Shown here in pieces: positions 116-34,110 of a DNA stretch of 34,110 bases (position 1 is the stretch's first letter; the number at the start of each line of letters is the position of its first letter). The stretch is from a virus. The translations under genes were made by a program, and so were the position numbers. The stretch covers positions 1-34,110 of IMG/VR virus record IMGVR_UViG_3300017728_000052; one strand, given 5' to 3'. The notes under the pieces are model-generated. The model ran no database searches and was not told where the DNA came from. It saw nothing but the letters and a program-made list of their open reading frames with translations.

Positions 116-181
116 TCGGCTGGCCCTATTACACAGGATAATGCCACCGTCACTGTTAACGGATATTGGAGTATCGTATGA
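2..181 (+). CDS. Fibre/adhesin protein with MPYIG start, 3' part (junction-spanning)
   Basis: This is the C-terminal part of the protein that starts at 33715. Codons from position 2 are in frame with that gene after circular closure and end at TGA 179-181, giving about 153 residues in total. It includes the segment YTKAEADTRYPFLG, a form common near the ends of phage fibre-shaft or head-binding domains. The last codons (Y-W-S-I-V) contain TTGGAG, which serves as the ribosome-binding site for the next gene at 178 (ATGA overlap). Function inferred: virion-attached fibre or adaptor subunit. Confidence 0.8.
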   Translation, partial: TKAEADTRYPFLGNDSIIRTNGQTITADITISATTNGVSAGPITQDNATVTVNGYWSIV

Positions 182-564
182 CCAGTCAGTTAAATGTAGA
201 TACTATTGCAGATAAGGCTGGTACTGGTCCTGTTGGGTTAACGAAGCAGAGTGCGGCAAAGGTTTGGGTGGATTTTAATGGCTCTGGAACAATCGCAATC
301 CGTGACAGTTTTTCAGTATCTAGTATTACAGATAATGGCACTTCTGATTACACGACAACTTTTGCGTCTGCTATGAGTAATGATGATTTTGCAGTGTCAG
401 CGCAGTCAACATCTACTGGTGCTGGTTATATCTGTAATGCACCTAAAAATGCAGCATCTGGAAGTATCTCCACTACCATAATAAGGTCAATCGGTATTGA
501 TTTTAATGGAAATACAAATGACCACGAGTTTGTGCATCATATTATCCACGGAGACCTTGCATAA
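178..564 (+). CDS. Short fibre-like paralogue 1 of cassette array (128 aa)
   Basis: First of eight paralogues (here called the GDLA family) sharing AK-x-W, then an aromatic residue, D-S-F-N/S-x-S-S-x-T-D-N-G-T, an F-x(2-3)-M-x-N segment and a C-terminal G-D-L-A. The start is ATG 178, not an upstream in-frame TTG at 166, because GGAG lies 6 bases before ATG 178 and the ATG overlaps the preceding stop (ATGA). The N-terminus (MTSQLNVDTI) is of a type common in marine phage fibre proteins; 'LTKQSAAKVW' is shared with the paralogue at 31289. It lacks catalytic motifs, membrane segments and a signal peptide. Likely a beta-rich virion-surface or receptor-binding subunit; function is inferred from context. 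Confidence 0.8.
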   Translation: MTSQLNVDTIADKAGTGPVGLTKQSAAKVWVDFNGSGTIAIRDSFSVSSITDNGTSDYTTTFASAMSNDDFAVSAQSTSTGAGYICNAPKNAASGSISTTIIRSIGIDFNGNTNDHEFVHHIIHGDLA

Positions 565-566
565 TG
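550..566 (+). promoter_or_regulatory. Cassette junction repeat: GDLA codons double as next RBS
   Basis: GGAGACCTTGCATAATG encodes the last residues G-D-L-A, the stop TAA and the overlapping ATG of the next gene; GGAG is the Shine-Dalgarno element. The same junction recurs at 951-967, 1355-1368, 1714-1730, 31640-31653, 32053-32069, 32415-32431 and 33701-33717. Variants end in TAATG or ATGA, and 31640 has GGGGACTTAGC. The next gene is not always a family member: it is a holin candidate at 1728, a putative assembly protein at 32429 and an MPYIG protein at 33715. Confidence 0.85.
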
Positions 567-965
567 GCTAGTTTACTTAAAGTAGATTCACTAACAGGTG
601 TAACCACCGCTGGTTCTATTAGCGTTACTGGCGAGGGCAACTCAACCACGACTAATCTTCAGCAGGGGTTGGCGAAGTCTTGGTACAAGTTAAACGGTTC
701 TGGAACCATCAGTGGATATGACAGTTTTAATATTGCGTCTTTCACCGATAACGGAACAGGAGACTATTCTGGAACTTTTACCAGCGCAATGGGAAATGCA
801 AACTATTCTGCCAGTGCTAACACAGGTTCCGCTGATGTGTTTGGTTCTGTTGACGGTGGTAATCAGGCAACAACTCTTTTGCGAGTTACATCGTATTACC
901 ACTCTAATAGTGCCAACCTTGACCGCGCACAAGTATATGCAATAGCAGCAGGAGACCTAGCATAA
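564..965 (+). CDS. Short fibre-like paralogue 2 (133 aa)
   Basis: GDLA-family member. The N-terminal block TAGSISVTGEGNSTTTNLQQ (about residues 15-34) is almost identical in protein to the block in the gene at 31651, yet the DNA differs at many synonymous sites, so the similarity is maintained rather than recent. A core with D-S-F-N-I-A-S-F-T-D-N-G-T-G-D-Y follows, then F-T-S-A-M-G-N-A-N-Y and terminal GDLA. The ATG overlaps the preceding TAA (TAATG). Probable virion-surface subunit, by context only. Confidence 0.8.
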   Translation: MASLLKVDSLTGVTTAGSISVTGEGNSTTTNLQQGLAKSWYKLNGSGTISGYDSFNIASFTDNGTGDYSGTFTSAMGNANYSASANTGSADVFGSVDGGNQATTLLRVTSYYHSNSANLDRAQVYAIAAGDLA

Positions 966-1369
966 TGGCAAGCGAACTTAGAGTTAACACCCTGAAGGAT
1001 GCCAGCGGTAATAACAGCATTGCTACTAGCTTTGTGGCGGGTGGTAGTGCAAAGTGTTGGGCAAACTTCAATGGCACAGGGACCGCTGCCACTCGTGACA
1101 GTTTCAATCTTTCTAGTTTAACAGATAACGCCACTGGTGATTTTACCATTTCTTTCTCATCTTCTTTTAGCAATAACGACTACGCTGTAGGGGGTACAAC
1201 TCGTTCTGCAGGTGTAATATCTGGGGGTAGTTATCAAGCACCAGCAGATAGTGATTCTGACCAAGCAACAGGTTCTTTAAGAGCATATACAATTAGTCTT
1301 AGCAGCGGCAGTCTTACTGTTGCTGATATAAGTTATTGCTATCCTAGTTTACAAGGAGACCTCGCATGA
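965..1369 (+). CDS. Short fibre-like paralogue 3 (134 aa)
   Basis: GDLA-family member with an 'ELRVNTLKDASGN' N-terminus instead of the TAGS block. The core A-K-C-W-A-N-F-N-G-T-G-T followed by D-S-F-N-L-S-S-L-T-D-N-A-T-G-D-F is clear. The variable middle (about residues 70-115) is rich in Ser and Gly. It starts in a TAATG overlap and ends in ATGA, so its translation is coupled on both sides. Role inferred as in the neighbouring paralogues. Confidence 0.8.
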   Translation: MASELRVNTLKDASGNNSIATSFVAGGSAKCWANFNGTGTAATRDSFNLSSLTDNATGDFTISFSSSFSNNDYAVGGTTRSAGVISGGSYQAPADSDSDQATGSLRAYTISLSSGSLTVADISYCYPSLQGDLA

Positions 1370-1728
1370 GTAAGGCAGCAGAACTAGCCGAGTTTGGCAG
1401 CGGTATCTCTAGCGGCCCTAATGCTGTCGAGGGTTTGGCGAAGTCTTGGTGTCATTTTAATGGCACTGCGGGTTCAGTTTCTTTTGAGGACAGTTTTAAT
1501 AAAAGTTCTATTACCGATGTTGCTACTGGCAGATTTACTACAGCATTTACAAACAATATGGGCAACGCACATTATGCAGAAACCCCTTCTTCTAGTTACT
1601 TATCTGGTATTTGGGACCAGACAAACATGATATCATCTAGTTGCCAAATTTTTACTGCTGATTCGCCATCAGGCGCACTTTCAGATAGGGAACCGACTGT
1701 ATCAGTGACAATAGGAGACCTAGCATAA
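1366..1728 (+). CDS. Short fibre-like paralogue 4 (120 aa)
   Basis: GDLA-family member with a short N-terminus (MSKAAELAEFGSGISSG) before G-L-A-K-S-W-C-H-F-N-G-T. A 15-bp stretch (ttggcgaagtcttgg) is identical to the equivalent place in the gene at 564, a possible recombination patch. The core reads D-S-F-N-K-S-S-I-T-D-V-A-T-G-R-F. It is the last fibre cassette before the lysis block, and its GDLA/SD junction drives the holin-like gene at 1728. Confidence 0.8.
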   Translation: MSKAAELAEFGSGISSGPNAVEGLAKSWCHFNGTAGSVSFEDSFNKSSITDVATGRFTTAFTNNMGNAHYAETPSSSYLSGIWDQTNMISSSCQIFTADSPSGALSDREPTVSVTIGDLA

Positions 1729-1895
1729 TGAACGATGAAACCAAAGTTGTCCTAGATGTGGCTGCTGGCACAGGCACGGTTGCCGCGTGGATGGCTATGG
1801 TTCCTGACTTTGTAGCATTGTTTACTGGCGTCTGGGTGTTGATACGCATCTTTGAAACCAAGACCGTTCAGAGGCTTCTAGGGAAAGATGTTTAA
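1728..1895 (+). CDS. Putative class II-type small holin (55 aa)
   Basis: Small ORF from the ATG overlapping the previous stop (TAATG). The protein has an acidic N-terminus (MNDETK), a hydrophobic stretch from about residue 13 to 41 (G-T-V-A-A-W-M-A-M-V-P through V-W-V-L-I-R-I-F), then a basic tail (K-T-V-Q-R-L-L-G-K). Size and layout resemble T7 gp17.5-type holins and small holin-like proteins next to fibre genes in marine podophages. It is followed by endolysin-block genes. The product is predicted to insert in the inner membrane and to time lysis. A second holin candidate lies at 3294, so the division of labour is unclear. Confidence 0.65.
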   Translation: MNDETKVVLDVAAGTGTVAAWMAMVPDFVALFTGVWVLIRIFETKTVQRLLGKDV

Positions 1896-7928: not shown

Positions 7929-8103
7929 TTGCCCTGACTGCGGCGGGGCTGGTGAATATGAGGTTGAGGTCGAGGTTATTGACCATGCCAATGGCGGCTT
8001 TATCAAGGGCATCATGCAGACTTGTGAGTTCTGTGACGGTGACGGTGAGGTGCATGAAGAAGACGCAGCCGAGTTTCTCATCCATGTAGAGTTTGAACAA
8101 TGA
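7888..8103 (+). CDS. DnaJ-type zinc-ribbon protein (71 aa)
   Basis: It overlaps the regulator gene by 41 bases in another frame and has GGAAAGG about 9 bases upstream of ATG 7888. Two CxxCxGxG-like motifs are present: C-P-D-C-G-G-A-G (residues 15-22) and C-E-F-C-D-G-D-G near residue 46-53. These are the zinc-binding repeats of DnaJ-type cysteine-rich domains, separated by an acidic beta segment. No J domain is present. Likely a small metal-binding protein; target unknown. The stop overlaps the resolvase-like ATG (ATGA). Confidence 0.75.
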   Translation: MTSTNNTTASDYVNCPDCGGAGEYEVEVEVIDHANGGFIKGIMQTCEFCDGDGEVHEEDAAEFLIHVEFEQ

Positions 8104-8495
8104 CCAACGGGCGCAACAAAGGGGCTTCATTTGAAAGATTTATAAGCGGTGAGATTTTCTCTGCCCTTGGTGTCGAGACAAAGAGAGACCTGGAACAATA
8201 CAGATTAGCAGGCAAGGGTGATTTGATTGGCCTTGATGGGTGGCTGATAGAGTGTAAGCGGTATGCAAACACGACAGCCAATAATATCCATAAGGATGCC
8301 TGGTGGTCACAAACTTGCGCAGCCGCGTTATTAACAGGTGAAAGGCCAGTTCTGATTTACAAGTTTGACAGGCAGCCGATTCGCTGCGTTGTGTATCTCT
8401 CAGCTATCAATGAGGCTTTCTCTAATAAGGATGACATAGCCACGATTAGCTTTGAGACATGGTGCATGTTAGTGCGGGAGTCCTTATGCGATTAG
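8100..8495 (+). CDS. PD-(D/E)XK nuclease, putative Holliday junction resolvase
   Basis: The 131-residue protein opens M-T-N-G-R-N-K-G-A-S-F-E-R-F and contains E12, then G-K-G-D-L-I-G-L (D41) and W-L-I-E-C-K-R-Y (E51-x-K53), the typical E...D...ExK catalytic set. The C-terminal half (S-Q-T-C-A-A-A, P-V-L-I-Y-K-F-D-R-Q-P) matches small phage and archaeal resolvase-like proteins. It would cut branched DNA made by the recombination module before packaging. Starts in an ATGA overlap; its 3' end overlaps the convergent HNH gene by 12 bases. Confidence 0.75.
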   Translation: MTNGRNKGASFERFISGEIFSALGVETKRDLEQYRLAGKGDLIGLDGWLIECKRYANTTANNIHKDAWWSQTCAAALLTGERPVLIYKFDRQPIRCVVYLSAINEAFSNKDDIATISFETWCMLVRESLCD

Positions 8496-14638: not shown

Positions 14639-16228
14639 ATGCAAGATTTCATTAAGTCACTGGTAAAACGGTACGATTCACTAAAGACCCGTAGGGATAA
14701 TTGGGATACGCATTATCAGGAACTTGCTGATTACATGCTGCCCCGCAAAGCTGATATTGTTCGCAAGCGTTCCAGAGGCGAGAAGCGGATGGAAATGATA
14801 TTTGATGGCACTGCATTGCAGGCTGTCGATTTATTATCAGCTAGTCTCCACGGCATGCTGACCAGTGGTGCAACTCCCTGGTTCCACCTAGACTTAAAAG
14901 ATGCAGACATAGGCCGTGACGATGAGGTGCGCGAGTGGTTACAAGACACCAGTATGCGCATGATGAGGGCGTTTGGCCACTCTAACTTTGAAACTGAAAT
15001 CCATGAGATGTATGTAGACCTTGTTGTTTTTGGCACAGGCTGCATGTTTGTCGAGATGGATGACCGTGACTTGCGGTTTAGTACCAGGCACATATCCGAG
15101 TTTTATGTTCAAGAGAACCAGTTTGGTATTGTAGATACAGTGTTTAGGATGTACAGGCTACCAGCCCGTCAAGCTGTGCAAAGGTTTGGTATTGATAATG
15201 TTGGTGACTACATTGCCAAGAAGTTTAAAGAAAAACCAGATGACGAAATAGATTTGTTGCATGCTGTTGTGCCGCGTATTAACCGTGACCCTAACAAGCG
15301 TGACAATAAAAACATGCCGTTTGCGTCATTCTACATTGATATGCAAACAAAGATGCTACTTTCCGAGAGTGGCTTCCAAGAGTTCCCGTACATTGTTCCG
15401 CGATTTTTGAAGGCAACTGGCGAGACAATGGGGCGTTCCCCAGCGATGACTGCGTTGCCTGACGTTAAGATGTTGAATCTTATGTCAAAAACAATCATCC
15501 AAGCTGCTCAGAAACAGATAGACCCTCCCCTTCTTGTTCCTGACGATGGATTCCTCTTGCCCATCAGAACGCAGCCTGGGGGATTGAACTTCTTTAGAAG
15601 CGGTACTAGGGAGATGATTACGCCGCTAAACACAGGCGCAAACATTCCTATTGGTTTAAGCATGGAAGAACAACGGCGTACAGCTATTCGTTCAGCGTTC
15701 TATGTTGACCAGCTTCTTAGTGGTGGCGCACCAAATATGACAGCTACTGAGGTTGTCCAGCGCCAAGAAGAACGCATGAGGGTGATTGGCCCTGTGCTGG
15801 GAAGATTGATGAATGAGATGCTTCGGCCTCTTATTGACCGTGTATTTGCGTTAATGCTGCGCAGTGACATGCTTCAACAGCCGCCAGAAATGATACAAGG
15901 ACGCGATATAGATATTGAATATGTATCACCACTAGCCCGTGCGCAGAAGTCAAGCAGCCTTAACAGCACTATGAAAGCGTTGGAGATACTAATGCCGTTG
16001 TCACAATCCATACCAGTAGGCGACCACATTGATGCCGATGGATTAGTTAAGCATGTAACTGAGGCATTAGGCGTACCAAAGACTGCGTTGAAGTCAGAGC
16101 GTGAGGTGCAACAAGTTCGTGAGGAACGCGCCGCACAGCAACAGCAACAAATGGAAATGATGCAAGAGCAACAAGACATACAGAACGCAGGCCAGCTTGC
16201 TCAAGCATCTAGGATGGTTAGTAAGTGA
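14639..16228 (+). CDS. Portal / head-tail connector protein (T7 gp8-like)
   Basis: The 529-residue protein has the T7-type portal layout. An N-terminal helical region (R-R-D-N-W-D-T-H-Y-Q-E-L-A-D-Y-M-L-P) comes first. S-L-H-G-M-L-T-S-G-A-T-P-W-F (about 71-84), F-G-T-G-C-M-F-V-E and the stem/crown segments with L-P-D-V-K-M-L-N-L-M-S-K-T follow, and Q-R-Q-E-E-R-M-R-V-I-G-P-V is conserved in the family. A Gln-rich C-terminus (Q-Q-Q-Q-M-E-M-M) ends the protein. It forms the dodecameric ring for DNA entry and tail attachment. Length is close to T7 gp8 (536). Confidence 0.92.
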   Translation: MQDFIKSLVKRYDSLKTRRDNWDTHYQELADYMLPRKADIVRKRSRGEKRMEMIFDGTALQAVDLLSASLHGMLTSGATPWFHLDLKDADIGRDDEVREWLQDTSMRMMRAFGHSNFETEIHEMYVDLVVFGTGCMFVEMDDRDLRFSTRHISEFYVQENQFGIVDTVFRMYRLPARQAVQRFGIDNVGDYIAKKFKEKPDDEIDLLHAVVPRINRDPNKRDNKNMPFASFYIDMQTKMLLSESGFQEFPYIVPRFLKATGETMGRSPAMTALPDVKMLNLMSKTIIQAAQKQIDPPLLVPDDGFLLPIRTQPGGLNFFRSGTREMITPLNTGANIPIGLSMEEQRRTAIRSAFYVDQLLSGGAPNMTATEVVQRQEERMRVIGPVLGRLMNEMLRPLIDRVFALMLRSDMLQQPPEMIQGRDIDIEYVSPLARAQKSSSLNSTMKALEILMPLSQSIPVGDHIDADGLVKHVTEALGVPKTALKSEREVQQVREERAAQQQQQMEMMQEQQDIQNAGQLAQASRMVSK

Positions 16229-23156: not shown

Positions 23157-25658
23157 ATGCCAAAAATTCCAGTATATCAACAGAAAGTAGGTGTAGCGGC
23201 AGGCGGGTTAGGGCCACGCGCAAACTCGGCTGCATTTGAAGCCCCAGGAAAAGCAACTGCTGCGTTTGGCGAGCAGCTTGGAGATGTAGCTTACAAATTA
23301 GCTGAACAAGAGAGGAAACGCGAAGATAGGCGCATATTGCAAGAGGAGTCAGAGGCCGCAAAAGAATCTGCAATGCAAAAAAATATGGAAGACCAAAGCA
23401 CAACCTTTGGTGACGCTAAGAATAGTATGGCAGCACACAAGGCCGACTATTTAAAAAACCTAGAAAACAAAGGTTATAGTAAACGTAGATTGGCATTAGT
23501 AAAATCCGAGATAGACTCACAATTTTCCATAGCATCGTTAGATGCCCAGAAAAACGCATTTAATAGAGGCACACAGTTAAGCACTGAGGCTGATAACAAG
23601 TCTCTCGACAGTCATAGACAGACTATGCGTACCGCTGCACCTGGGTCTGCCCCATATATGCTTGCTGAGGCAAACGCTGCTAAAATATTTGATGCAGCTA
23701 AAACAGAAAACAGAAAGTTAAGTTATAGCCCACAATCATTTACGCAAAATGTAAAGGTCGATACATTCAATTTGAAGTTAGAGTCGGCCCAGACACCAGC
23801 GGAACTAGATGCTGCTTATCAGACATTAAAAGATGATACATCTTTAAATCCAAGTGTGCTTATCAAAGCCAAAAGTAGCATAGCTACTGCTAAAAGCAAT
23901 TTAGGAACAAAGTTGTATGAGTCTACATTAGAGACCGTTGTGGAAGCTGATATGTCTTCAGCCGAAGCACAGCAACTTATAGATGGTTATAAGGCTGGTG
24001 AAGACTTTAGCATCACTAGACAGAACGGAGACACAATCTCATTTAATGCAAAAGAGATGCCGGTAGGCAGACGCACTCAGCTTATATCTGAAGCGGAAAA
24101 GATTAAAAAAGGTTTCCAAATTGAACTGCGTTCTGCAAACACAGCTTCTATTGTGGACGGATATGAGACTGCGGGCAAAGATGGCGCACTAGCTATAGCC
24201 TTGGATGTGTACAACACGACTGAGGATGTCGAAGATGCAAATGCGTCTGTGTTGGCAACCGCAAGAACAATGGATGCGCAAGCAAAAATTGCGTTAGCAG
24301 AAGGTAACTTTGAACAGGCAAAACTGTTGTCTGAAACAGCAAACGCATTAGTTACTGAAAGTTTTGGTGGAAACCCATCTCTTATAGAAAGCGCAGATAC
24401 ATCAACTTCCGCAAATTCTATATCAAAGTCTGTAGCGGCTACAGGAATAACTCTTGTTCAAGAACAGCAAAAACAAATCAAATTCGATGCGGGAGTAAAG
24501 GCATTTGCGGCTGGTGAGTTGGATAACTACGCAGGCGCTTATACTGCTGATGAAGAAGAAGCTATAATGAATCAAGGTTTGTCTGGGAAAAGTTTGCCGG
24601 AACAGCTTGACTTGTTGTCTCGCAACAATATGACATCCCCAACAATCAAAAGTATAATTGATGGCGCAATGAAAGAGGGATTATCACCATCTTTTGACCC
24701 ATCTTCAGACGTTAATCCTGTGCTACAGGGGCTAGAGGCTTATAGACAGGTTAAAGTAAGGGGTGAGGGAATACTTGCAGACCACGCCACAGAACAAAAC
24801 CAAGCATATTTTGACTCCGTTCTGGCTTTAGAGGCAGTCGGAGTTGAAACTGTTGACGCAATTAACCGTGTTACAAGAGGTTTTAACAGTGGGGTTGATG
24901 TTGATGCAAAATATTCTGTGGTTAAAAGCGAAGTAGACGGGATATTGGATGCAAATGTTACGACAGTATTTGGCGCTGTGTTATTCGGTGAAAAAGTTGA
25001 TAACCGTTCATCAATCCAGCAGCGTTTAGAAGACTTGAGTAAGACTTACATTAGCATGGGAACAATGGACGCAAAGAGTGCAGTTCAAGCAGCGGCTAAA
25101 AGCATAAACGAAAGCCACATAAACTTGCGTGGACAGCTTATACCTCGCCGCAAAAGTTATCCTAAAGATATAAAGACTATGGTTGATTTAGCGGCAACAG
25201 ATTTCTTTAACAAAAATCAGGCTTTGCCAGCGGGTGACAAGGGGAAAATCACCGATTTGCAGATTGACGATATTGCTTTGATACCGACCAGCGGTCGTTC
25301 AGATGAATGGATTGTTATCCATAATGGCGTTGTTGCTTCATATGCTGGTGCGCCTTTGTATCCGATTGGAGACTTGCAAGGATTGTATGATGCTGACACA
25401 AGCGTTCAGACAGCAAAGAAAATACAGGAAAACCTCAAAAAGCGCGGCCTTACGGAACCACAAAAACTGCAAACAGAAGTGCAAAGATTACGCCGTGAGG
25501 CTGGCGAACTGACAGGGCTAAACCTTTCCAACATAAGGAAAGAACAAGGCGAACAAGCGGCTGACGCTGCTATTGCAAAACGCAAGTCACTGTTAGAAGA
25601 AGCAGACGAATTGCAAAAGTCTGGCGTTGAACTAGGAAGGCTGCAAAGTGGTTCTTGA
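23157..25658 (+). CDS. Internal virion protein (T7 gp15-like ejection protein)
   Basis: The 833-residue protein begins M-P-K-I-P-V-Y-Q-Q-K-V and G-P-R-A-N-S-A-A-F, typical of gp15-type openings. After that comes a very long helical region rich in A, K, E and Q with few aromatic residues. No transmembrane segment is visible. It is in the gp15 place and would assemble in the virion core and be ejected to form the trans-periplasmic channel. T7 gp15 is 747 aa. Its 3' end overlaps the gp16-like gene by 11 bases. Confidence 0.8.
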   Translation: MPKIPVYQQKVGVAAGGLGPRANSAAFEAPGKATAAFGEQLGDVAYKLAEQERKREDRRILQEESEAAKESAMQKNMEDQSTTFGDAKNSMAAHKADYLKNLENKGYSKRRLALVKSEIDSQFSIASLDAQKNAFNRGTQLSTEADNKSLDSHRQTMRTAAPGSAPYMLAEANAAKIFDAAKTENRKLSYSPQSFTQNVKVDTFNLKLESAQTPAELDAAYQTLKDDTSLNPSVLIKAKSSIATAKSNLGTKLYESTLETVVEADMSSAEAQQLIDGYKAGEDFSITRQNGDTISFNAKEMPVGRRTQLISEAEKIKKGFQIELRSANTASIVDGYETAGKDGALAIALDVYNTTEDVEDANASVLATARTMDAQAKIALAEGNFEQAKLLSETANALVTESFGGNPSLIESADTSTSANSISKSVAATGITLVQEQQKQIKFDAGVKAFAAGELDNYAGAYTADEEEAIMNQGLSGKSLPEQLDLLSRNNMTSPTIKSIIDGAMKEGLSPSFDPSSDVNPVLQGLEAYRQVKVRGEGILADHATEQNQAYFDSVLALEAVGVETVDAINRVTRGFNSGVDVDAKYSVVKSEVDGILDANVTTVFGAVLFGEKVDNRSSIQQRLEDLSKTYISMGTMDAKSAVQAAAKSINESHINLRGQLIPRRKSYPKDIKTMVDLAATDFFNKNQALPAGDKGKITDLQIDDIALIPTSGRSDEWIVIHNGVVASYAGAPLYPIGDLQGLYDADTSVQTAKKIQENLKKRGLTEPQKLQTEVQRLRREAGELTGLNLSNIRKEQGEQAADAAIAKRKSLLEEADELQKSGVELGRLQSGS

Positions 25659-28600
25659 CCCTAATCAAATACAAGTAGACCGCCCTATTAGCTTGCTGGA
25701 AGAACAAGCCGCCGAGCGTGTTTACGAAGAAGAAAAAGAAAAGGTCACGTTTGGTAAAGCTGTTGATGCAGCATTTGCTGAAGAAAATACTATGTCTTGG
25801 ATATTCAATGGTTTAGAAGACCACGAACCAGACAGAGAGTTTGACCTTACCCCAGAGTTAATTGAACAGTACACAGAGGGCGTACCAGAAGACCGCAAGG
25901 ATTACGTTGTAGATGCAGTTAGCTTACCTCACTTGCAGAAATTACACGACCGCGCCAAAGAGTCTCTTAAAAACCAAGACACTCTTGCCAAGTATGGATG
26001 GGGCGGTGTGGGTTTGCAAATGGCGGCAGCAACCCTAGATGTGCCAGCCATTGCAGCAACCATAGCAACAGAAGGCATAGCCGCCCCGTTAATATGGGGA
26101 GGAAAGGCAACTAGATTAGCTAGAACATTCCGTGCAGCAACCGCTAGTTCTGCATCAGCGGCAGCAATCGAAGCATACCTTGTGTCTCAAAACAATATGA
26201 AAGACCCATACGATATATTGTATGCGGCAGGCGGTGGATTTTTGTTAGGCGGCGCTGTTGCTGGGGCTAAAGGTGTGTTTGGTAAAGCATCTAAAGAACG
26301 CTATCAACAAGCCGCCATGAATACGATGAAGTACGCAGATGACGCGCAATCAGCAGATGTTAATCAAGCCATGATTGACCGTGGCATTGATACTGGCGTA
26401 GGTGCGGCAGAAAACCCTGCATCGCGTTCCATGCAAGAAATGGACATTCGGCGTGGCATCCAAGAAAGAATTGATGATGCAGACGCAGAACCAATGGCTG
26501 CTTTTGGTAAATTGCGGTTTGATATGGTTGGGCAGTTAAAAAGCAGCACACTTGGAATTAGCCGCAGGATTGCTGGGATACTTGGCGAAGATGCTGTTGA
26601 GCCTGGTGAGATTACTGCCGACCTTATCAAGACTGTTGGCACAAAGGTTACATCAAATAAATTTTATCAGGGATACGAAGCTGGGTATGATGGCTGGGCA
26701 AAGTCTAGCGGTGTCAATTGGGGTGGACGCAGACTAGAGTCTAGGCGTGGTGAGTTTGGTAAGTTGGTGTCTGATGAGATTGAGTCACCAGGCACATCTA
26801 CAGACCCTAATGTCATTGCGGCAGCACAAAATACCAGCCGCCTATTCCGTGATATGTTGCAAGAAGCCAAACGCGCTGGCGTAAAAGGATTTGACGACAT
26901 TCCAGAAGACCTGACGTACTTCACGCACCTTTGGGATGGGCATAGATTAATTAAAGCAGAAGCAGACTTTAGCACAAAAGGGGTGCAGGGGCTTTTAAAG
27001 AAAAGTCTGTTGTCTGCCAATCGCACTATGGATGACGACCTAGCTGAAGCCATCGCCAAAGGGATGTTCAATAAAATTGTTAAGAACGAAGTCGGTATGG
27101 ATGCGGGTCTGGCTAGGATATTTAGCACCTCTAACAAAGAAGCCTTGCGCGATATTTTACTAGAGGAAGAACTGCTTGACGAAGTTAGGGTTGACCGCCT
27201 TTTAAGCCAGTTAGACATGGACAGGGAAGGTGTGCCAGCAAGAGCCAAGCGCCGCTTAAAGTTTGACATGAGTTCTACTATAGAGGCTAACGGAAAAACA
27301 CTACATATCAAAGAGTTAATGGAACGCGACACCGAGGCTGTAGTAAACAGCTACATTAATTCTATGCAAGGCAAGATTGCTTTGGCTAAAAAGGGCATAT
27401 TTTCTGACGGTGACTTTGAAGCAATAAAAAAAGACATATTAGAGGAAGGTAAGAAGCTAGGGGGAGAAGGAAGAAGGCAAGCGGATAAAGACATTGAGAA
27501 GTTAAATGTTTTATATGCTTTGGTATCTGGCAGAACGTCACCTTTGATTGGCGACCCGTCTAGCACTGCCAATAGAATGATACGTTTTCTTATGGATTAC
27601 AACTTTATCCGTGTTATGAACCAAGTTGGTTTTGCTCAAATATCAGAACTAGGAAATGCTGTGTCGATTGATGGCACTGTAGCGTTGATGAGGGTTGTGC
27701 CTGACATGGGGGCAATGATTCGGCGTACAGCGGATGGCGAGTTAGAAGATTTAGTCGCCAGGGATGTAGAGGCATTTGTTGGGTCTGGTGTTGACCGAGT
27801 TATCCAGCAGTCTATGAATAAGCACAGTGTTGAGGATATGTATGGCTTAGGTAAAGGTGACAAACTTGACAAAGCCATCGGCGGTATGCACAAGCTAAAA
27901 CGTCTGACTGCTGACTTATCTGGTCTCGCCCCTATTACCGTTGCGCTTGAAAGGGCTGCGGCAAAGGTTGCTGTCCAGTCATTAGTGGATGTTGCGTCCG
28001 GTGTTAAAAAACTGCGCATGAAAAAGCTAGGAAAATCTACAATCGAACAAGACATAGCAGCAAGGCTAAAATCGTTTGGCCTGGACGAAAAGATGTGGCC
28101 TCGCGTAGTAGACCAGATACAAAAAAACGCAGTTACAAACCCGTCTATGTTTTTGCGCACCCGCAAAGTTAAAACAATTAACATGTCGGAGTGGACAGAC
28201 ATAGAAGCAAGAGATGCTTTCGGGTATGCAGTGGCTAGATGGACACGGCAAAGCATCCAGCAGAACGATGTCGGTAATTTGAACATTCACATGACTAGCA
28301 CTATGGGCAAAATATTTACTCAGTTCCGTGCATTTATGCTGGTGTCACACTCAAAGCAGTTTTTGCATAATATCAAACGAAACGACTTTGCCGCATATCA
28401 AGCGATGATGTGGTCAACATTTTATGGGGCTATGGCATATACAGCGCAAACGCATGTCAATGCAATCGGCAGGGATGACAAGGCTGAGTTCTTAAAAGAA
28501 AGATTAAGCGCAGAAGAAATAGGCAAGATGGCGTTTGCCCGTAGTTCTTGGGCTGCTTTGTTTCCATCAGCAGCGGATATGCTTGCTTGGTCTACTGGTT

Positions 28601-28860
28601 ACGAGCCTATGTTTTCGTACAAAAGAAGCACGGGGCTTGCAACAGGGTTCTTGTCTGGCGCACCAATGGTTAATTTACTTGATACTGCGGGTAAGGTTTT
28701 GCAGGGCGGCGGAAGGTCATTACTCAACCCAGACTACCAATGGTCACGCGGTCAGCAACGCGCACTAAACTCTTTGTTGCCGTTTCAAAATGCCATAGGA
28801 ATCAAGAATATACTCAACCAAATGGTAGAAGGTTTACCAGAGCAAGCTAAGATTGAGTAA
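25648..28860 (+). CDS. Internal virion protein (T7 gp16-like), no lytic domain seen
   Basis: Start GTG 25648 has AGGAAGG 7 bases upstream. The 1070-residue protein (T7 gp16 is 1318) has an acidic N-terminus, a hydrophobic Ala/Gly-rich part (about residues 115-215, with G-G-G-F-L-L-G-G-A-V-A-G) and a large helical C-terminal part with F-R-A-F-M-L-V-S-H-S-K-Q-F-L-H-N. The T7-type N-terminal transglycosylase motif (E-S-x-x-x ... G-L-x-Q) was not seen, so it may only form the inner-membrane channel. Family by position and size. Confidence 0.75.
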   Translation: MVLDPNQIQVDRPISLLEEQAAERVYEEEKEKVTFGKAVDAAFAEENTMSWIFNGLEDHEPDREFDLTPELIEQYTEGVPEDRKDYVVDAVSLPHLQKLHDRAKESLKNQDTLAKYGWGGVGLQMAAATLDVPAIAATIATEGIAAPLIWGGKATRLARTFRAATASSASAAAIEAYLVSQNNMKDPYDILYAAGGGFLLGGAVAGAKGVFGKASKERYQQAAMNTMKYADDAQSADVNQAMIDRGIDTGVGAAENPASRSMQEMDIRRGIQERIDDADAEPMAAFGKLRFDMVGQLKSSTLGISRRIAGILGEDAVEPGEITADLIKTVGTKVTSNKFYQGYEAGYDGWAKSSGVNWGGRRLESRRGEFGKLVSDEIESPGTSTDPNVIAAAQNTSRLFRDMLQEAKRAGVKGFDDIPEDLTYFTHLWDGHRLIKAEADFSTKGVQGLLKKSLLSANRTMDDDLAEAIAKGMFNKIVKNEVGMDAGLARIFSTSNKEALRDILLEEELLDEVRVDRLLSQLDMDREGVPARAKRRLKFDMSSTIEANGKTLHIKELMERDTEAVVNSYINSMQGKIALAKKGIFSDGDFEAIKKDILEEGKKLGGEGRRQADKDIEKLNVLYALVSGRTSPLIGDPSSTANRMIRFLMDYNFIRVMNQVGFAQISELGNAVSIDGTVALMRVVPDMGAMIRRTADGELEDLVARDVEAFVGSGVDRVIQQSMNKHSVEDMYGLGKGDKLDKAIGGMHKLKRLTADLSGLAPITVALERAAAKVAVQSLVDVASGVKKLRMKKLGKSTIEQDIAARLKSFGLDEKMWPRVVDQIQKNAVTNPSMFLRTRKVKTINMSEWTDIEARDAFGYAVARWTRQSIQQNDVGNLNIHMTSTMGKIFTQFRAFMLVSHSKQFLHNIKRNDFAAYQAMMWSTFYGAMAYTAQTHVNAIGRDDKAEFLKERLSAEEIGKMAFARSSWAALFPSAADMLAWSTGYEPMFSYKRSTGLATGFLSGAPMVNLLDTAGKVLQGGGRSLLNPDYQWSRGQQRALNSLLPFQNAIGIKNILNQMVEGLPEQAKIE

Positions 28861-28898: not shown

Positions 28899-30485
28899 AT
28901 GACAGTTAGTAGCACCACAACCAGAAACAGTTACAGCGGTAATGCCAGCACTAGCGTCTTTGCGTATACGTTCAAAATATTTGATGATGACGATATTACT
29001 GTTGTTATCCGTACTGACGCAACTGGTGTTGAGACAACAAAAACAAAGACCACGCATTACACTGTATCGGGTGTAGGTAGCGGCAGTGGTGGTAATGTTA
29101 CGTTTACATCAGGCAATACCCCTGCAAGCGGCGAAACTGTTGTGCTGCTTAGAACAACAGCCCGTACCCAGCTTACAGACTATGTAGCTAATGACCCGTT
29201 CCCAGCAGATACGCATGAAGATGCACTGGATAAACTGACCTTTATCACACAGGAACTACAAGAAGAAGTCGGGCGTTCACTCAAGCTATCACAAACAAAT
29301 ACCATTGCTACGGCTGAATTTACAGTAGGGGCAACAGACCGCGCCAACAAAATCCTTGGATTTGACACCAGCGGTGACTTAGCCATCTTCCAAGAGATTG
29401 GCACATTCAAAGGTTCAGACGCTACAACCACAACCGCAGCCTACATTGAACGTGACATTGTAAAATCAACCACAACAGCACAGTTAAACAACGTATATAT
29501 TGCACTGCAAGATTCGCCTGTCGGCACAGCTTTAACAAACACGAGTTATTGGGCGTTGCTTGTAGACGCTGTATCAGCCGCCGCATCAGCCACGGCAGCA
29601 GCAGCAAGCGCGACTGCATCAGCCAGCAGCGCCACAGCATCAGCTAGTAGTGCAACGTCCTCGGCAAGTTCAGCCTCATCTGCCGCTACAACATATGATA
29701 ACTTTGATGACAGGTATCTTGGGGCAAAAAGCGCGGATGTTTTAGTCGATAATGACGGTGACGCGCTAATTACAGGCGCTTTATATTTTAACAGCAGTGA
29801 CGGTGACATGCGCGTTTATAACGGTAGCGCATGGATTAACGTAGTTTCATCGTTAGGCAATCTTGCTAATGTTGTTGAGGATAGCACCCCACAGTTAGGT
29901 GGTAATTTAGACACTAATGGCAATGATATTGTTACAACATCTAATGCCAGCTTAGACCTTGCGCCAAATGGCACAGGCGCTGTGGTTGTGCGAGGAAACA
30001 CTAACCCTGGCAGTATTATATTTAACTGCGAATCTAACAGTCACGGTCAAACAGTTAAGGCGCAGCCGCACTCAGCAACTGTAACAAACGCACTGACGCT
30101 TCCGGCTGGCGGCGACCAAGAGATTGTTGGCACAACAGCAACACAGACATTAACAAACAAGTCTATCGTAGCCACACAGCTTACAGGCACAATTGCTAAT
30201 GCAAGACTAGATGCACAGTTACAGGACGTAGCTGGACTGGCGGTAACAAATGGTGGTTTTATTGTAGGTGATGGTTCTAACTTTGTACTAGAGACCGCAG
30301 GCACTGCGCGTACATCACTTGGACTAGGAACAGCAGCGATTACTGATACAGGAACTTCTGCTGGAAATACTGTGGTTTTAGATGGTTCAGCTAGGCTACC
30401 AGCAGTAGATGGGTCACAATTAACTAATCTATCATCCACAGGTGCGACTGCTGGTTTCGCAGTGGCTATGGCTATCGCGTTGTAA
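28899..30485 (+). CDS. Tail fibre protein with T7 gp17-type N-terminal domain
   Basis: AGGAG lies 7 bases before ATG 28899. Residues 1-140 match the T7 fibre attachment domain: N-S-Y-S-G-N-A-S-T-S-V-F-A-Y-T-F, I-F-D-D-D-D-I-T-V-V-I, T-H-Y-T-V-S-G-V-G, V-V-L-L-R-T-T-A and F-P-A-D-T-H-E-D-A-L-D-K-L-T. An Ala/Ser repeat linker (about 225-265), then beta-rich shaft repeats (T-P-Q-L-G-G-N-L-D-T-N-G, T-Q-T-L-T-N-K-S, L-T-G-T-I-A-N-A-R-L-D). The Ala/Ser run is likely a trimeric coiled coil. No obvious receptor lectin domain; receptor binding may be shared with the small cassettes downstream. Confidence 0.88.
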   Translation: MTVSSTTTRNSYSGNASTSVFAYTFKIFDDDDITVVIRTDATGVETTKTKTTHYTVSGVGSGSGGNVTFTSGNTPASGETVVLLRTTARTQLTDYVANDPFPADTHEDALDKLTFITQELQEEVGRSLKLSQTNTIATAEFTVGATDRANKILGFDTSGDLAIFQEIGTFKGSDATTTTAAYIERDIVKSTTTAQLNNVYIALQDSPVGTALTNTSYWALLVDAVSAAASATAAAASATASASSATASASSATSSASSASSAATTYDNFDDRYLGAKSADVLVDNDGDALITGALYFNSSDGDMRVYNGSAWINVVSSLGNLANVVEDSTPQLGGNLDTNGNDIVTTSNASLDLAPNGTGAVVVRGNTNPGSIIFNCESNSHGQTVKAQPHSATVTNALTLPAGGDQEIVGTTATQTLTNKSIVATQLTGTIANARLDAQLQDVAGLAVTNGGFIVGDGSNFVLETAGTARTSLGLGTAAITDTGTSAGNTVVLDGSARLPAVDGSQLTNLSSTGATAGFAVAMAIAL

Positions 30486-30499
30486 AATAAGGATTTATT

Positions 30500-30832
30500 A
30501 TGGCACAGGACTTTGAAAGAAACATTGCAAGGAATGTCGGCGCAAGCGAGGTCGTTTTGCGAACCGCTAACTCTGATGATGCTATTATTGGTATCAACAT
30601 TGCTAATGTGACAACTACCCAAATCTTAATGGACGTATACATCACTGGCGCTGGTGCTACTGATGATTATTACATTATTAAAGATGCCCCAATTCCAGTA
30701 GGTTCAGCCTTACAAGTCTTGGACGGTGGTGCTAAGATTGTAATGCAATCTGGTGACATACTTAATGTAATAAGCGATACTGCATCAAGCGCAGATGTTT
30801 GGGTTTCCGTAGTCGATACTATTAGTTCATAA
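30500..30832 (+). CDS. Fibre-associated or adaptor protein (110 aa)
   Basis: AAGGA lies 6-7 bases before the ATG. The product is beta-rich: A-S-E-V-V-L-R-T-A-N-S-D-D-A-I-I-G-I-N-I-A-N, I-L-M-D-V-Y-I-T-G, D-Y-Y-I-I-K-D-A-P-I-P-V-G-S-A-L and M-Q-S-G-D-I-L-N-V-I. This looks like a compact jelly-roll-type protein as seen next to fibre genes in other marine podophages, where it is assumed to be structural. Name tentative. Confidence 0.65.
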   Translation: MAQDFERNIARNVGASEVVLRTANSDDAIIGINIANVTTTQILMDVYITGAGATDDYYIIKDAPIPVGSALQVLDGGAKIVMQSGDILNVISDTASSADVWVSVVDTISS

Positions 30833-30842
30833 GGAATAAAGT

Positions 30843-31292
30843 ATGCCGTATATTGGTCAACAAGTTCCAGGTTCTTATCAAGCTACTAAGGCTGTACAAC
30901 GCTTTAATGGTGACGGTAGTGACACTACATTCACACTGACTACCACAGTATCTTCTGTGCAAGATGTACTGGTGTCAGTCGATGGTGTTGTGCAAGACAC
31001 AGCAGCTTACACTATTCCTGATGGAACTACACTCACATTTACTGCTGCCCCTTCTTCTGGTACAGGTAACATCTTTGTAAATTACCTAGCACCTCAAGCT
31101 GGTACAATTACACCACCCGCTGAGAACAAGGGTAACTTTAAGGCTGGTGGTTTGTTTCGTACCAATGCACAATCCCTTACAGCAAATACAACCATCCTAG
31201 CTACAGAAAACGCCAATGTAACTGGTCCGTTTACTGTGGCTTCTGGTGTTACATTAACCGTTGAAAGCGGTGGGACATTGGTGACGCTATGA
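30843..31292 (+). CDS. Fibre/adhesin protein with MPYIG start (149 aa)
   Basis: Begins M-P-Y-I-G-Q-Q, the same opening as the gene at 33715, then R-F-N-G-D-G-S-D-T-T-F-T-L (21-33), V-L-V-S-V-D-G-V-V-Q-D, Y-T-I-P-D-G-T-T-L-T-F-T-A-A-P-S-S-G and I-F-V-N-Y-L. This phage fibre N-terminal or neck-type domain recurs in marine phages. The C-terminal part is a beta repeat (L-T-A-N-T-T-I, V-T-V-E-S-G-G-T-L-V). It ends in ATGA with the first of the downstream cassettes. Confidence 0.75.
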   Translation: MPYIGQQVPGSYQATKAVQRFNGDGSDTTFTLTTTVSSVQDVLVSVDGVVQDTAAYTIPDGTTLTFTAAPSSGTGNIFVNYLAPQAGTITPPAENKGNFKAGGLFRTNAQSLTANTTILATENANVTGPFTVASGVTLTVESGGTLVTL

Positions 31293-31654
31293 GTACATTA
31301 AAAGCAGATACCATACAAAGCACAGGCGGTGGTGCAGCTACGCTAACAAAGCAAACTGCGGCAAAGGCTTGGATATATTATAAACAAAACACACCCACTA
31401 TTACAGACAGCTTTAACACAAGTAGTGCTACAGATACAGCAACGGGAAACTTTTTACAAAATTACACTAATGCTTTTGATGCCTCATATGATGGCAGGGC
31501 TATGAGTGGAAGCGGCTTTACCACTGACAAGGTTCTTTCACATGGTTCAACTGGTTCAACTACAAGCGCACAACAGTTTAATTTATATGACGTTGGCAGT
31601 TCTGGTTTAGACGACAGCTTTAGTTCTGCTTTAACTCACGGGGACTTAGCATGA
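31289..31654 (+). CDS. Short fibre-like paralogue 5 (121 aa)
   Basis: GDLA-family member with N-terminus M-S-T-L-K-A-D-T-I-Q-S-T-G-G-G, then T-L-T-K-Q-T-A-A-K-A-W-I-Y-Y, D-S-F-N-T-S-S-A-T-D-T-A-T-G-N-F and terminal G-D-L-A. The T-L-T-K-Q-(T/S)-A-A-K segment is shared with the gene at 178. It starts in ATGA overlap and ends in ATGA overlap with the next cassette (GGGGACTTAGC variant). Same inferred role as the others. Confidence 0.8.
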   Translation: MSTLKADTIQSTGGGAATLTKQTAAKAWIYYKQNTPTITDSFNTSSATDTATGNFLQNYTNAFDASYDGRAMSGSGFTTDKVLSHGSTGSTTSAQQFNLYDVGSSGLDDSFSSALTHGDLA

Positions 31655-32067
31655 GTGAGATACTAACAAACAAACTCACTGGCACAAGCACTGCTGGGTC
31701 TATCCTTGTAACAGGCGAAGGTAATAGCACGACCACTAACTTGCAGCAGGGGTTAGCGAAGCAGTGGGTGTATTTTGATATGGCAAGTACCACTGCCGTA
31801 GATTCGCTGAACACGAGTAGCTTAACCGATAGCGGCACTGGAAAATTTGTGGTGAATATAAACAATGACTTCAACAACACAAGTTATACCGTAAATTATA
31901 CTGGAAACGGTTACGCAAGTGACACTTTTCCTGCAAATGTGACATGCGTTGCAAAAATTAGTTATGAAACAACCACCACAACTGGCTTATATGACACTAT
32001 TTCTTATAGCTCTGTTCTTGTAGATAGTAAATATAATTACTGTACAGCACACGGAGACCTCGCATAA
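31651..32067 (+). CDS. Short fibre-like paralogue 6 (138 aa)
   Basis: GDLA-family member with N-terminus M-S-E-I-L-T-N-K-L-T-G-T and the conserved T-A-G-S-I-L-V-T-G-E-G-N-S-T-T block followed by N-L-Q-Q-G-L-A-K-Q-W. The core is D-S-L-N-T-S-S-L-T-D-S-G-T-G-K-F, then a divergent C-terminal half ending C-T-A-H-G-D-L-A. The 'TAGS...QQGLAK' block is shared with the gene at 564. Confidence 0.8.
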   Translation: MSEILTNKLTGTSTAGSILVTGEGNSTTTNLQQGLAKQWVYFDMASTTAVDSLNTSSLTDSGTGKFVVNINNDFNNTSYTVNYTGNGYASDTFPANVTCVAKISYETTTTTGLYDTISYSSVLVDSKYNYCTAHGDLA

Positions 32068-32429
32068 TGGCACTAGGAAAAATCAAAGCAGATACCTTAG
32101 AACACAGCACCGCTGGGTCACTTGATACGCAGTACGTTGTGCAGGGTAGTGCAAAGGCTTGGGCTAAATGCACTAATGCAGCAGGATTAGACGACTCTTT
32201 CAATATAAGTGGTGGAACTGATAATGGCACTGGCGACTACACTTATGCCTTCACCAGCGGTATGGCGACCACGAATTATGTTTCATTGACTAACACGGTT
32301 TATGCCACTTTGTCGTCAAGCGGTACATTAACCGCATCAAATTACCAAGTAAGGTGTTACAGTCGTGCTGACTCGCTTACTGCTATTGATGATGTCAATT
32401 TTTCACAAATTGCAGGAGACCTAGCGTAA
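32067..32429 (+). CDS. Short fibre-like paralogue 7 (120 aa)
   Basis: GDLA-family member with N-terminus M-A-L-G-K-I-K-A-D-T-L-E and T-A-G-S-L-D-T-Q-Y-V, then A-K-A-W-A-K-C, D-D-S-F-N-I-S-G-G-T-D-N-G-T-G-D-Y and F-T-S-G-M-A-T-T-N-Y. The final GGAGACCTAGCG-TAATG starts the putative assembly protein at 32429. Confidence 0.8.
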   Translation: MALGKIKADTLEHSTAGSLDTQYVVQGSAKAWAKCTNAAGLDDSFNISGGTDNGTGDYTYAFTSGMATTNYVSLTNTVYATLSSSGTLTASNYQVRCYSRADSLTAIDDVNFSQIAGDLA

Positions 32430-32905
32430 TGCAGACACCACAGTTTCAAGGCACACACCTATTTGACAGACTATGCTGGGCAAAGGAAAACCTAGACGGT
32501 GTACAGTCAGACTATCGTGTAGTCTATGAGGACAGCGTAGACGAGTGCGCTAAGATACTTGTGCCTGACCCTAACTGGATGGCGTGTGCGCTACAGGGCG
32601 GCATCCTACCACCAGTACAGGTATATTGGGAACTAGCAAAAGATGAAGCAAAGCCTGACTTTGTAAAGCATACTAGGGGTCACTTGCTTCATAACACTGA
32701 GCCTGTTGAGGCTATGACCGAAGAACAGGCCATTGAGTATTTGATTATGAAGGATTGCCCACAGCATGTGTGGCGAGACTATGATAGCGGCAATAAGCCA
32801 AAGATGGTAATATGCCGCAAAGAGCAGCTTCCAGCTACAAGAGAGTGGCGCAATGCTTGGAAGATAAGTGAAGACCTAGCCACTGATGAAACCGTAGCCG
32901 CATAG
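32429..32905 (+). CDS. Fibre-region protein, possible assembly factor (158 aa)
   Basis: Starts at ATG 32429 inside the GDLA junction. Unlike its neighbours it is acidic and rich in Trp/Cys (L-F-D-R-L-C-W-A-K-E-N, D-P-N-W-M-A-C-A-L-Q-G-G-I-L, V-Y-W-E-L-A-K-D-E). The C-terminal part has H-V-W-R-D-Y-D-S-G-N-K-P-K-M-V-I and R-E-W-R-N-A-W-K-I-S. 'EWRNAWKI' is like ends of phage proteins found with fibre genes. Possibly a chaperone of fibre assembly; not proven. Confidence 0.55.
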   Translation: MQTPQFQGTHLFDRLCWAKENLDGVQSDYRVVYEDSVDECAKILVPDPNWMACALQGGILPPVQVYWELAKDEAKPDFVKHTRGHLLHNTEPVEAMTEEQAIEYLIMKDCPQHVWRDYDSGNKPKMVICRKEQLPATREWRNAWKISEDLATDETVAA

Positions 32906-32915
32906 GAGAAACCTC

Positions 32916-33287
32916 ATGGCAACAACATATATCGTAGACAAGGACGGTAATCAGATTGATGCTTCAACTGCTACCGTTCCATCAGACCGCCACTTCCGTG
33001 GTGCATGGTCACTAGAAGGCACTGTTATTTCAGAAGACATGACAGCAGCCAAAGCAATCTTCAAGGACAAAATCCGTGAGGTTCGCGCACCACTGCTTGA
33101 CGCAGAGGATGTCGTGTACATGAAGGCACTAGAAGCTGATGACACATCTGCAAAAGCAGCGTCAGTAACTAAGAAGGGCAAGTTGCGTGATGCACCAGCC
33201 GCTTCAGCAATTGGTAGTGCAGACACAATTGCTAAACTCAAGGCAGCTTGGGACACATCTGTGCTGGGCGATAGCCCTTACGCATAA
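32916..33287 (+). CDS. Fibre-region protein, possible assembly/chaperone type (123 aa)
   Basis: AGGAG lies 7 bases upstream of the ATG. The product starts M-A-T-T-Y-I-V-D-K-D-G-N-Q-I, then D-R-H-F-R-G-A-W-S-L-E-G-T-V-I, a basic helix A-K-A-I-F-K-D-K-I-R-E-V-R-A-P-L-L-D and E-A-D-D-T-S-A-K, ending P-Y-A. This DKIRxxRxPLLxxxDxxYxKALE-type helix is common in small phage tail-fibre assembly or tape-type proteins. Exact family not assigned. Confidence 0.6.
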   Translation: MATTYIVDKDGNQIDASTATVPSDRHFRGAWSLEGTVISEDMTAAKAIFKDKIREVRAPLLDAEDVVYMKALEADDTSAKAASVTKKGKLRDAPAASAIGSADTIAKLKAAWDTSVLGDSPYA

Positions 33288-33298
33288 GGAGATAGGTT

Positions 33299-33715
33299 AT
33301 GGCACTAACACAGATTGTAAAGGATGGCTTGGGTGCAAGCCTGACAGCTACGTCTGAAGGCGGTGCTGTAACCACTTCTGTCCAACAGGGGTTGGTAAAG
33401 GCGTGGTTCAGTATGAATGAGGGTAGCACCCCAGCGTTCCATGATAGCTTTAACTTTGGTTCAATCACTGATAACGGAACCGGAGACATAACAGTAGCGT
33501 TTACCTCTGTTTTTGGTAATGCTAACTACAGCCTGTCCGGTTCTAACGCAAATAGTGGTACAAACTACACACGAGGCCCGGGCGGGTTTTATGACTCTGC
33601 TGTAGCTACAAGCAGTTATAGGTATCTTAGTTGTTTTGGGTCAGATGCTAGTGGTAATGGTGCTTTGCGTGATGACGCTAGGATGAAACAGATGTATGTA
33701 GGAGACCTTGCATAA
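33299..33715 (+). CDS. Short fibre-like paralogue 8 (138 aa)
   Basis: GDLA-family member with its own AGGAG RBS. The N-terminus (M-A-L-T-Q-I-V-K-D-G-L-G-A-S-L) is unlike the others, but V-T-T-S-V-Q-Q-G-L-V-K-A-W-F-S-M-N, D-S-F-N-F-G-S-I-T-D-N-G-T-G-D-I and F-G-N-A-N-Y-S-L-S are clear. It ends Y-V-G-D-L-A in GGAGACCTTGCATAATG and starts the junction-spanning MPYIG gene. Confidence 0.8.
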   Translation: MALTQIVKDGLGASLTATSEGGAVTTSVQQGLVKAWFSMNEGSTPAFHDSFNFGSITDNGTGDITVAFTSVFGNANYSLSGSNANSGTNYTRGPGGFYDSAVATSSYRYLSCFGSDASGNGALRDDARMKQMYVGDLA

Positions 33716-34110
33716 TGCCATATATAGGTAAATCACCATCAGTAGGATTCCGCAATCGTTTTGTATATCAAGCGACAGCAGGGCAGACTAGCTTCAGTGG
33801 CAGTGATGCCGACAGTAAGGTGTTATCCTATCAGGATAGCCTGTACATGGACGTATACCAGAATGGTGTCCTACTCAAACCTGGTACAGACTATACAGCC
33901 ACGACAGGTACAACAATGGTACTGGTCACAGGGGCAACCCTCAATGACGTAGTTGAGATGGTTATCTATGACACATTCTCTGTAGCCAACTCGTACACTA
34001 AGGCAGAGGCTGACACACGCTACCCATTCTTAGGCAATGACAGCATCATCCGTACCAATGGGCAGACCATTACTGCTGACATCACAATCAGTGCGACAAC
34101 TAACGGTGTA
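33715..34110 (+). CDS. Fibre/adhesin protein with MPYIG start, 5' part (junction-spanning)
   Basis: ATG overlaps the preceding TAA (TAATG). The product opens M-P-Y-I-G-K-S-P-S-V-G-F-R-N-R, then F-V-Y-Q-A-T-A-G-Q-T-S-F-S-G, V-Y-Q-N-G-V-L-L-K-P-G-T-D-Y-T-A and L-N-D-V-V-E-M-V-I-Y-D-T-F-S-V-A-N, the usual order of marine phage fibre N-terminal domains. It runs off the end at V-132 and continues at 116-181, giving 153 residues. It closes the fibre array onto the cassettes at 178-1728. Confidence 0.85.
   Translation, partial: MPYIGKSPSVGFRNRFVYQATAGQTSFSGSDADSKVLSYQDSLYMDVYQNGVLLKPGTDYTATTGTTMVLVTGATLNDVVEMVIYDTFSVANSYTKAEADTRYPFLGNDSIIRTNGQTITADITISATTNGV
33996..34110. repeat. Right copy of 115-bp terminal direct repeat
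   Basis: Exact copy of bases 1-115. It lies inside the fibre gene starting at 33715; removing one copy leaves a 33,995-bp circle with an intact frame across the junction. Confidence 0.95.

Follow-up and report, generated by a model that had tools for sequence, protein, structure and literature searches.

Branched, modular receptor binding is known from several phages: K1-5, KP32 and KP34 attach extra receptor-binding proteins via short conserved N-terminal peptides (PMC6872550), and CBA120 carries a branched set of four homotrimeric spikes, TSP1-4 (PMC7506556). In marine phages, the host-recognition genes (tail fibre, C1q, lectin-like) vary within populations, as the sections on metaviromic islands by Mizuno et al. 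2014 (PMC3909814) describe, and tail-fibre genes are noted as variable in papers on RCA phages (PMC6918029, PMC8528129). Phages of the HMO-2011 type are described as one of the most abundant viral groups in the ocean (PMC6918029). Here we analyse an array of small genes in the IMG/VR virus record IMGVR_UViG_3300017728_000052, positions 1 to 34,110; this whole stretch of 34,110 nucleotides is called the window below. We propose, with a probability of roughly 0.7, that it serves a short-tailed marine phage as a multi-socket receptor-binding array, with exchangeable bodies in tagged slots. The whole evidence base consists of sequence and predicted structure.

The window is a circularly permuted phage contig with a 115-bp terminal repeat (bases 1-115 equal 33996-34110), giving a circle of 33,995 bp. 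Because the MPYIG gene at 33715 reads across the join and aligns with HMO-2011 gp33 over its full length, the closure is sound, and the circularity assumed in the original prediction is thereby borne out. Straddling the join are eight head-to-tail paralogues, starting at 31289, 31651, 32067, 33299, 178, 564, 965 and 1366 and encoding 121, 138, 120, 138, 128, 133, 134 and 120 aa, respectively; every C-terminus is GDLA, exactly as the original prediction had it for eight proteins of 120-138 aa. It had counted a single MPYIG protein among them, but the block holds two MPYIG-type genes (30843 and 33715), here called anchors, together with two further genes, D and E. The parts are as follows:

30843..31292, + strand: anchor 1 (MPYIG...LVTL), recognised by PF03906 and its fold model
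31289..31654, + strand: tip slot A; tag MSTLKADTI, linker LTKQTAAKAW, GDLA end, ATGA junction
31651..32067, + strand: tip slot B; tag MSEILTNKL, linker LQQGLAKQW, GDLA end
32067..32429, + strand: tip slot C; tag MALGKIKAD, linker VQGSAKAW, GDLA end
32429..32905, + strand: gene D, conserved single-copy 158-aa protein, 82% identical in HMO-2011
32916..33287, + strand: gene E, conserved 123-aa protein (phrog_20196, unknown function, 8.8e-31)
33299..33715, + strand: tip slot F; tag MALTQI, linker VQQGLVKAW, GDLA end
33715..34110, + strand: anchor 2 (MPYIGKSP...), first part, running on through the circular join (HMO-2011 gp33 match)
116..181, + strand: anchor 2, last part (...NGYWSIV)
178..564, + strand: tip slot H; tag MTSQLNVDT, linker LTKQSAAKVW, GDLA end; the modelled protein
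564..965, + strand: tip slot I; tag MASLLKVDS, linker LQQGLAKSW, GDLA end
965..1369, + strand: tip slot J; tag MASELRVNT, linker AGGSAKCW, GDLA end, ATGA junction
1366..1728, + strand: tip slot K; tag MSKAAELAE, linker EGLAKSW, GDLA end

In the proposed arrangement, two anchors, the first with a T7-fibre tail-attachment domain, would each head a set of small tips. Each tip would combine a slot-specific N-terminal docking tag (about 10-25 residues), a position-class linker ending in Lys-x-Trp, an exchangeable beta-sandwich body of about 90 residues, of a type also present in the tail fibres of other phages, and a GDLA end, the codons of which would also serve as the ribosome-binding site of the next gene and as the stop/start overlap. 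The tags would hold each tip in place, while recombination would exchange bodies, drawn from a large shared pool, both inside a slot and across slots, its edges lying at the linker and the junction. Since any body ending in the junction sequence would keep the next gene translated, such swaps would be neutral for the rest of the operon. We infer that the tags dock on the anchors, that the tips are homotrimers on the virion and that the bodies bind host receptors.

The same array occurs in HMO-2011, a SAR116 phage, and in 80 IMG/VR loci. HMO-2011 gp28-gp42 is syntenic with the window gene by gene, with the same order, tags, junctions and D/E genes and with five GDLA tips; it differs in that slots B, I and K hold EIAG-type, C1q and 364-aa bodies, accompanied by two tail assembly chaperones, and in its backbone genes, which are unlike those of the window. 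The branched systems (the K1-5 gp37 adaptor with two spikes, G7C, KP32/KP34, the Menlow Klebsiella phages and CBA120) share with the window a T7-like or similar anchor and conserved N-terminal peptides of 7-29 residues preceding exchangeable C-terminal parts. The tags are the same kind of element, and sequence comparison finds this combination of a short conserved N-terminal peptide and a variable C-terminal part in the tips themselves. Compared with the K1-5 and CBA120 systems, however, the window array is smaller and more standardised, with up to eight tips of 120-138 aa containing no known enzyme domain, fixed slots, a common overlapping ribosome-binding-site junction and bodies shared across slots; attachment is here predicted from the genes. 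Classic C-terminal exchange of tail fibres (T-even phages, Mu, lambda Tfa-type chaperones) likewise pairs a conserved N-terminus with a variable C-terminus and a helper chaperone, of which PF16778 beside some bodies is the counterpart, but it concerns one long fibre, whereas the window array consists of many separate short genes. Metaviromic islands were seen by read recruitment, and the sections of PMC3909814 drawn on here do not describe slot grammar, a tag/body boundary or the junction. The literature searched, with the HMO-2011 genome paper outside it, yielded no description of the slot grammar, the cross-slot body exchange or the shared junction; within that scope these three features are apparently new, in contrast to branched modular receptor binding as such.

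The relatives were fetched via gene D, which has at least 585 relatives, and 80 loci were kept. Chained together, they follow a single gene order: anchor 1, A, B, C, D, E, F, anchor 2, H, I, J, K. The interval from anchor 1 to D holds exactly three genes in 51 of 56 arrays, the others having an added chaperone or companion gene (L007, L022, L024 and L085) or a fourth tip (L038). Tags fit their positions in 58/67 cases for slot A, 71/82 for C, 48/48 for H, 42/43 for I and 36/37 for J. Some phages, e.g., L022, L055 and L066, have only the first set, and in L038 the first set bears I-J-K tags and the second B-C tags. Linker classes are common to both array halves, LTKQ in A/H, QQGLAK in B/I and GSAK in C/J; the apparent mixing of protein blocks between members reported in the original prediction is thus not random, and reflects these position-class linkers. 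Its idea of whole cassettes being freely gained, lost and reordered does not survive the comparison, given the constant three genes and the tags that keep their positions. Of the two findings in relatives that the original prediction named as refuting it, one is seen, a fixed cassette number and order, and the other is not, recombination at the junction being plain.

The exchange affects only a part of each gene. In same-slot pairs with D genes 85-95% identical, tags are 0.78-0.90 identical, while bodies fall below 60% DNA identity in 704 of 711 pairs, which are not independent observations; the body medians of 0.52-0.54 compare with a shuffled background averaging 0.51 (maximum 0.57). Loci L023 and L026 share 99-100% identity over the stretch running from anchor 1 to the end of anchor 2, after which three bodies are replaced behind tags 92-98% identical. 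Conversely, bodies 90-99% identical are found in different slots (L082 A and L085 I, 99.3% over 299 bp; L029 A and L033 H, 97%), the homology running from the Lys-x-Trp linker to GGAGACC..GCAT. The best neighbour of a body is close to slot-blind, lying in the same slot 7 times where 4.8 were expected (n = 33 scorable). Other body types occupy the same slots: C1q bodies (PF00386) fill slot I in HMO-2011 and slot B in L085, Peptidase_S74 bodies slot B in L082 and L087, and EIAG-type bodies, with PF16778 tail assembly chaperones after them, occur in HMO-2011, while slot K bodies in relatives are mostly of other types. Chimeras also show where the edges lie, with a K tag fused to gene D (L051, L057) and an F tag fused to the end of anchor 2 (L013). 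The modularity and the exchange at the junction foreseen in the original prediction are supported by these replaced bodies with edges at the GDLA junction; as judged from sequence comparison, what is exchanged is not the whole gene but the body, bounded by the tag/KxW linker on one side and the GDLA junction on the other.

All GDLA bodies are homologous, with a few conserved positions, and A-B-C and H-I-J resemble copies of one trio, as would be expected if the array arose by tandem duplication with fast divergence in each slot and no body exchange, the tags being the slowly evolving half of the gene. We regard this explanation as improbable: near-identical bodies in different slots behind different tags largely refute it, unrelated bodies (C1q, S74, EIAG type) sit in the same slot behind the same tag, and in phages that are otherwise 99-100% identical the bodies alone are wholly different. 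The extreme variability of one part of each gene could also recall a dedicated diversity generator, either a reverse-transcriptase diversity-generating retroelement (DGR) or an invertase. This is hardly credible here, as bodies are replaced wholesale and the array genes all lie on one strand; DGR, invertase and integrase explanations were rejected because the window genome gave no match to RVT_1, Resolvase or Phage_integrase. A Sak-type single-strand annealing protein (5728-6435, - strand; PF06378, 1.3e-42) is a possible recombination enzyme. As the general swap enzyme Sak was rejected, since neither Sak nor Erf was found in the records of 16 relatives, many of which are fragments.

The junctions that delimit the bodies downstream are the following:

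31640..31653, + strand: junction A/B, GGGGACTTAGCATG; ribosome-binding site, GDLA codons and overlapped stop/start
32053..32069, + strand: junction B/C, GGAGACCTCGCATAATG
32415..32431, + strand: junction C/D, GGAGACCTAGCGTAATG
33701..33717, + strand: junction F/anchor 2, GGAGACCTTGCATAATG
550..566, + strand: junction H/I, GGAGACCTTGCATAATG
951..967, + strand: junction I/J, GGAGACCTAGCATAATG
1355..1368, + strand: junction J/K, GGAGACCTCGCATG
1714..1730, + strand: junction K/next gene (55-aa MNDETKVVL protein), GGAGACCTAGCATAATG

All eight GDLA ends overlap the next start, six as TAATG and two as ATGA (1355 and 31640). The sequence GGNGAYYTNGCNTRATG is matched exactly by six of the eight, against 0.09 expected with one mismatch allowed, and one of the eight has GGGGACTT in place of GGAGACCT. 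The common junction pattern of the original prediction therefore stands for these six exact matches and for the overlap at all eight, but not to the letter elsewhere, as junction 31640 reads GGGGACTTAGC and the Ala codon at junction 32415 is GCG. Its conservation exceeds amino-acid need: in 288 distinct GDLA genes from 84 arrays, GGA is used in 98% of cases versus 22% elsewhere in the same genes, GAC in 94% versus 36% and GCA in 92% versus 38%, and CTG/TTG are almost absent as codons for the Leu. Where the next gene is visible, its start overlaps the GDLA gene in 283 of 284 cases (by -1 or -4) and directly adjoins it in the remaining one; gene starts were set by a simple rule favouring overlaps, the overlap frames themselves being present in the sequence. 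This overlap with a ribosome-binding site just upstream is as in translationally coupled gene pairs, and we infer that the stop/start overlap couples translation here too. No promoter or terminator signals above chance were found within the array block.

A Shine-Dalgarno (SD) core is present at 284/291 GDLA junctions and at 34/38 non-GDLA TAATG junctions, versus 390/668 (58%) of other starts in the loci. In other reading frames, the junction SD core lies in unrelated protein ends such as PEKP, EDFS, LENA, LEDA and KDAD. Outside such arrays, members of the family have the ends VFG, VLG, FGGNS or FGGR, not GDLA, and two such homologues, in Vibrio phage L203 and Pseudomonas phage L205, have GGAGG before an overlapping start. 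At 1573-2324, L203 (Vibrio phage 1.052.A) bears an array on a smaller scale: a tandem pair of mini-fibres from this family, ending in FGGNS/FCGN and joined by an overlapping GGAGG..ATGA junction. GDLA might instead be kept mainly for a protein reason, e.g., as a trimer lock or docking tail, with the ribosome-binding site a by-product. The Leu is indeed kept via both CTN and TTA, and the Asp is kept though other GGA-G codons would preserve the ribosome-binding site. We nevertheless find this explanation unlikely in view of the extreme codon choice at silent positions, of the same ribosome-binding site arising from PEKP, EDFS, LENA and KDAD in other frames, and of the VFG, GGNS or GGR ends outside such arrays. 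Because unrelated protein ends also place a ribosome-binding site at the junction, the conserved element, read from sequence, is that site; GDLA is how it is usually read here, to which a preference for Asp and Leu at the protein level is added.

The tail-fibre identity put forward in the original prediction gained support from profiles and structure modelling. PHROG 11355 (tail fiber protein) is matched by 8/8 tips (E 2.1e-11 to 1.1e-20) and by 112/115 relatives, while the tip profile had no match among PDB sequences. The AlphaFold2 model of the slot-H protein is all-beta (pLDDT 83.8, pTM 0.71) and has 64 matches below 1e-3 among BFVD viral structures, tail fibres and spikes included (E 1.5e-9); the tip body thus models as a tail-fibre-type beta-sandwich. 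Anchor 1 carries PF03906, the T7 tail fibre N-terminal domain (3.4e-6 over its cut-off), and its model resembles the T7 gp17 N-terminal structures 7boz, 7ey9 and 9jz0 (E about 1e-3) as well as CBA120 TSP4, of which only the first part (residues 1-250) is matched in fold. Matches of the anchor profile to antibody light chains were taken as composition artefacts. Mini-anchors of 63-65 aa occur at L013 2552-2743, L022 8314-8511 and L040 1078-1275. As these keep the anchor C-terminal repeat alone, the sequence suggests that this end of the anchor may be the socket for the tips. Gene D had no Pfam match; its EWRNAW motif and position make it a possible assembly helper.

Three tips per anchor could also form one heterotrimer with one A, one B and one C, which would explain both the number three and the tags. 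Three tips per anchor are found in most arrays and also at the Microvirga locus described below, the Methylocystaceae locus having three tips and one other gene, and there are three linker classes. C1q and S74-chaperone domains self-trimerise in known fibres, and such a body can sit in one slot beside ordinary tips; L038, moreover, has four tips before D. We rank the heterotrimer low and consider it quite unlikely.

At least four genome backbones, distinguished by flanking gene families, carry the array: the HMO-2011 type, the L011 type, the window/L022 type and a cyanobacterial-phage type. The D genes of the window and L011 are 90.6% identical in DNA, and no backbone family common to the two was found. 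Two bacterial genome records, L208 (a Methylocystaceae metagenome-assembled genome) and L209 (Microvirga), contain D and E as well as an anchor and three tips; the ends there read GxLA or GDMA/GELS. A possible tail-sheath-like gene, noted by eye near the array of L209, hints at use of the array by contractile-tailed phages as well. The record HQ332136 / NC_023841, named Dunaliella viridis virus SI2, encodes at 15542-15937 a homologue (47%) of gene D; this virus may be a bacteriophage that was assigned to an algal host. Whether the array is a standard, lineage-independent plug-in format, in which any tip of the ocean pool would work in any of up to eight tag-defined sockets and a virion would bear several receptor binders, we judge to be about an even bet. 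In such a format, the KxW linker would be the 5' edge shared by all tips, and one shared 3' edge would act as protein end, ribosome-binding site and stop/start overlap together.

Several points weigh against the multi-socket array as proposed. The location of the tips on the virion and their binding are predictions, and the three-slot rule rests on loci selected by gene D. The fold match of slot H in the PDB is weak, the best being the phiAB6 tailspike (E 0.07, TM 0.52); the anchor model is only moderate (pLDDT 72.6), and anchor 2, searched through its HMO-2011 homologue, has no Pfam match of its own. The Sak of this phage was not found in the 16 array-bearing relatives mentioned above, many of their records being fragments. 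Finally, GDLA is found in 321/343 junction ends, with Leu coded by both CTN and TTA; since its Asp and Leu are kept more strictly than the ribosome-binding site requires, some protein-level role of the C-terminus is likely.

Elsewhere, the window genome encodes terminase, portal, major capsid and short-tail proteins (PHROG profiles). Other features, in order of position, are:

2588-3004 and 8100-8495, both + strand: two PD-(D/E)XK endonuclease-like proteins (PF11645, PF24608)
3835-4290, + strand: Peptidase M15 endolysin candidate (PF08291, 5.5e-17) in the lysis region after the array
23157-25658, + strand: 833-aa protein with no Pfam or PHROG match, probably an internal virion protein by position
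25648-28860, + strand: 1070-aa protein with no Pfam match, probably an internal virion protein by position
28899..30485, + strand: long tail-fibre protein with a T7-fibre-like N-terminal part, upstream of the array (PHROG tail proteins phrog_1640 / phrog_13893, residues 1-159)
30500..30832, + strand: small structural protein, homologue of HMO-2011 gp42, preceding anchor 1 in most relatives (synteny)

The array looks like a natural plug-in system for changing virus attachment, and fixed slots with freely exchanged tips would provide a concrete mechanism for keeping up with changes of the host surface. It also offers an example of a gene's start signal shaping the C-terminus of the protein encoded before it. 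Host-recognition repertoires may become readable from metagenomes, the tag giving the slot and the body the specificity.

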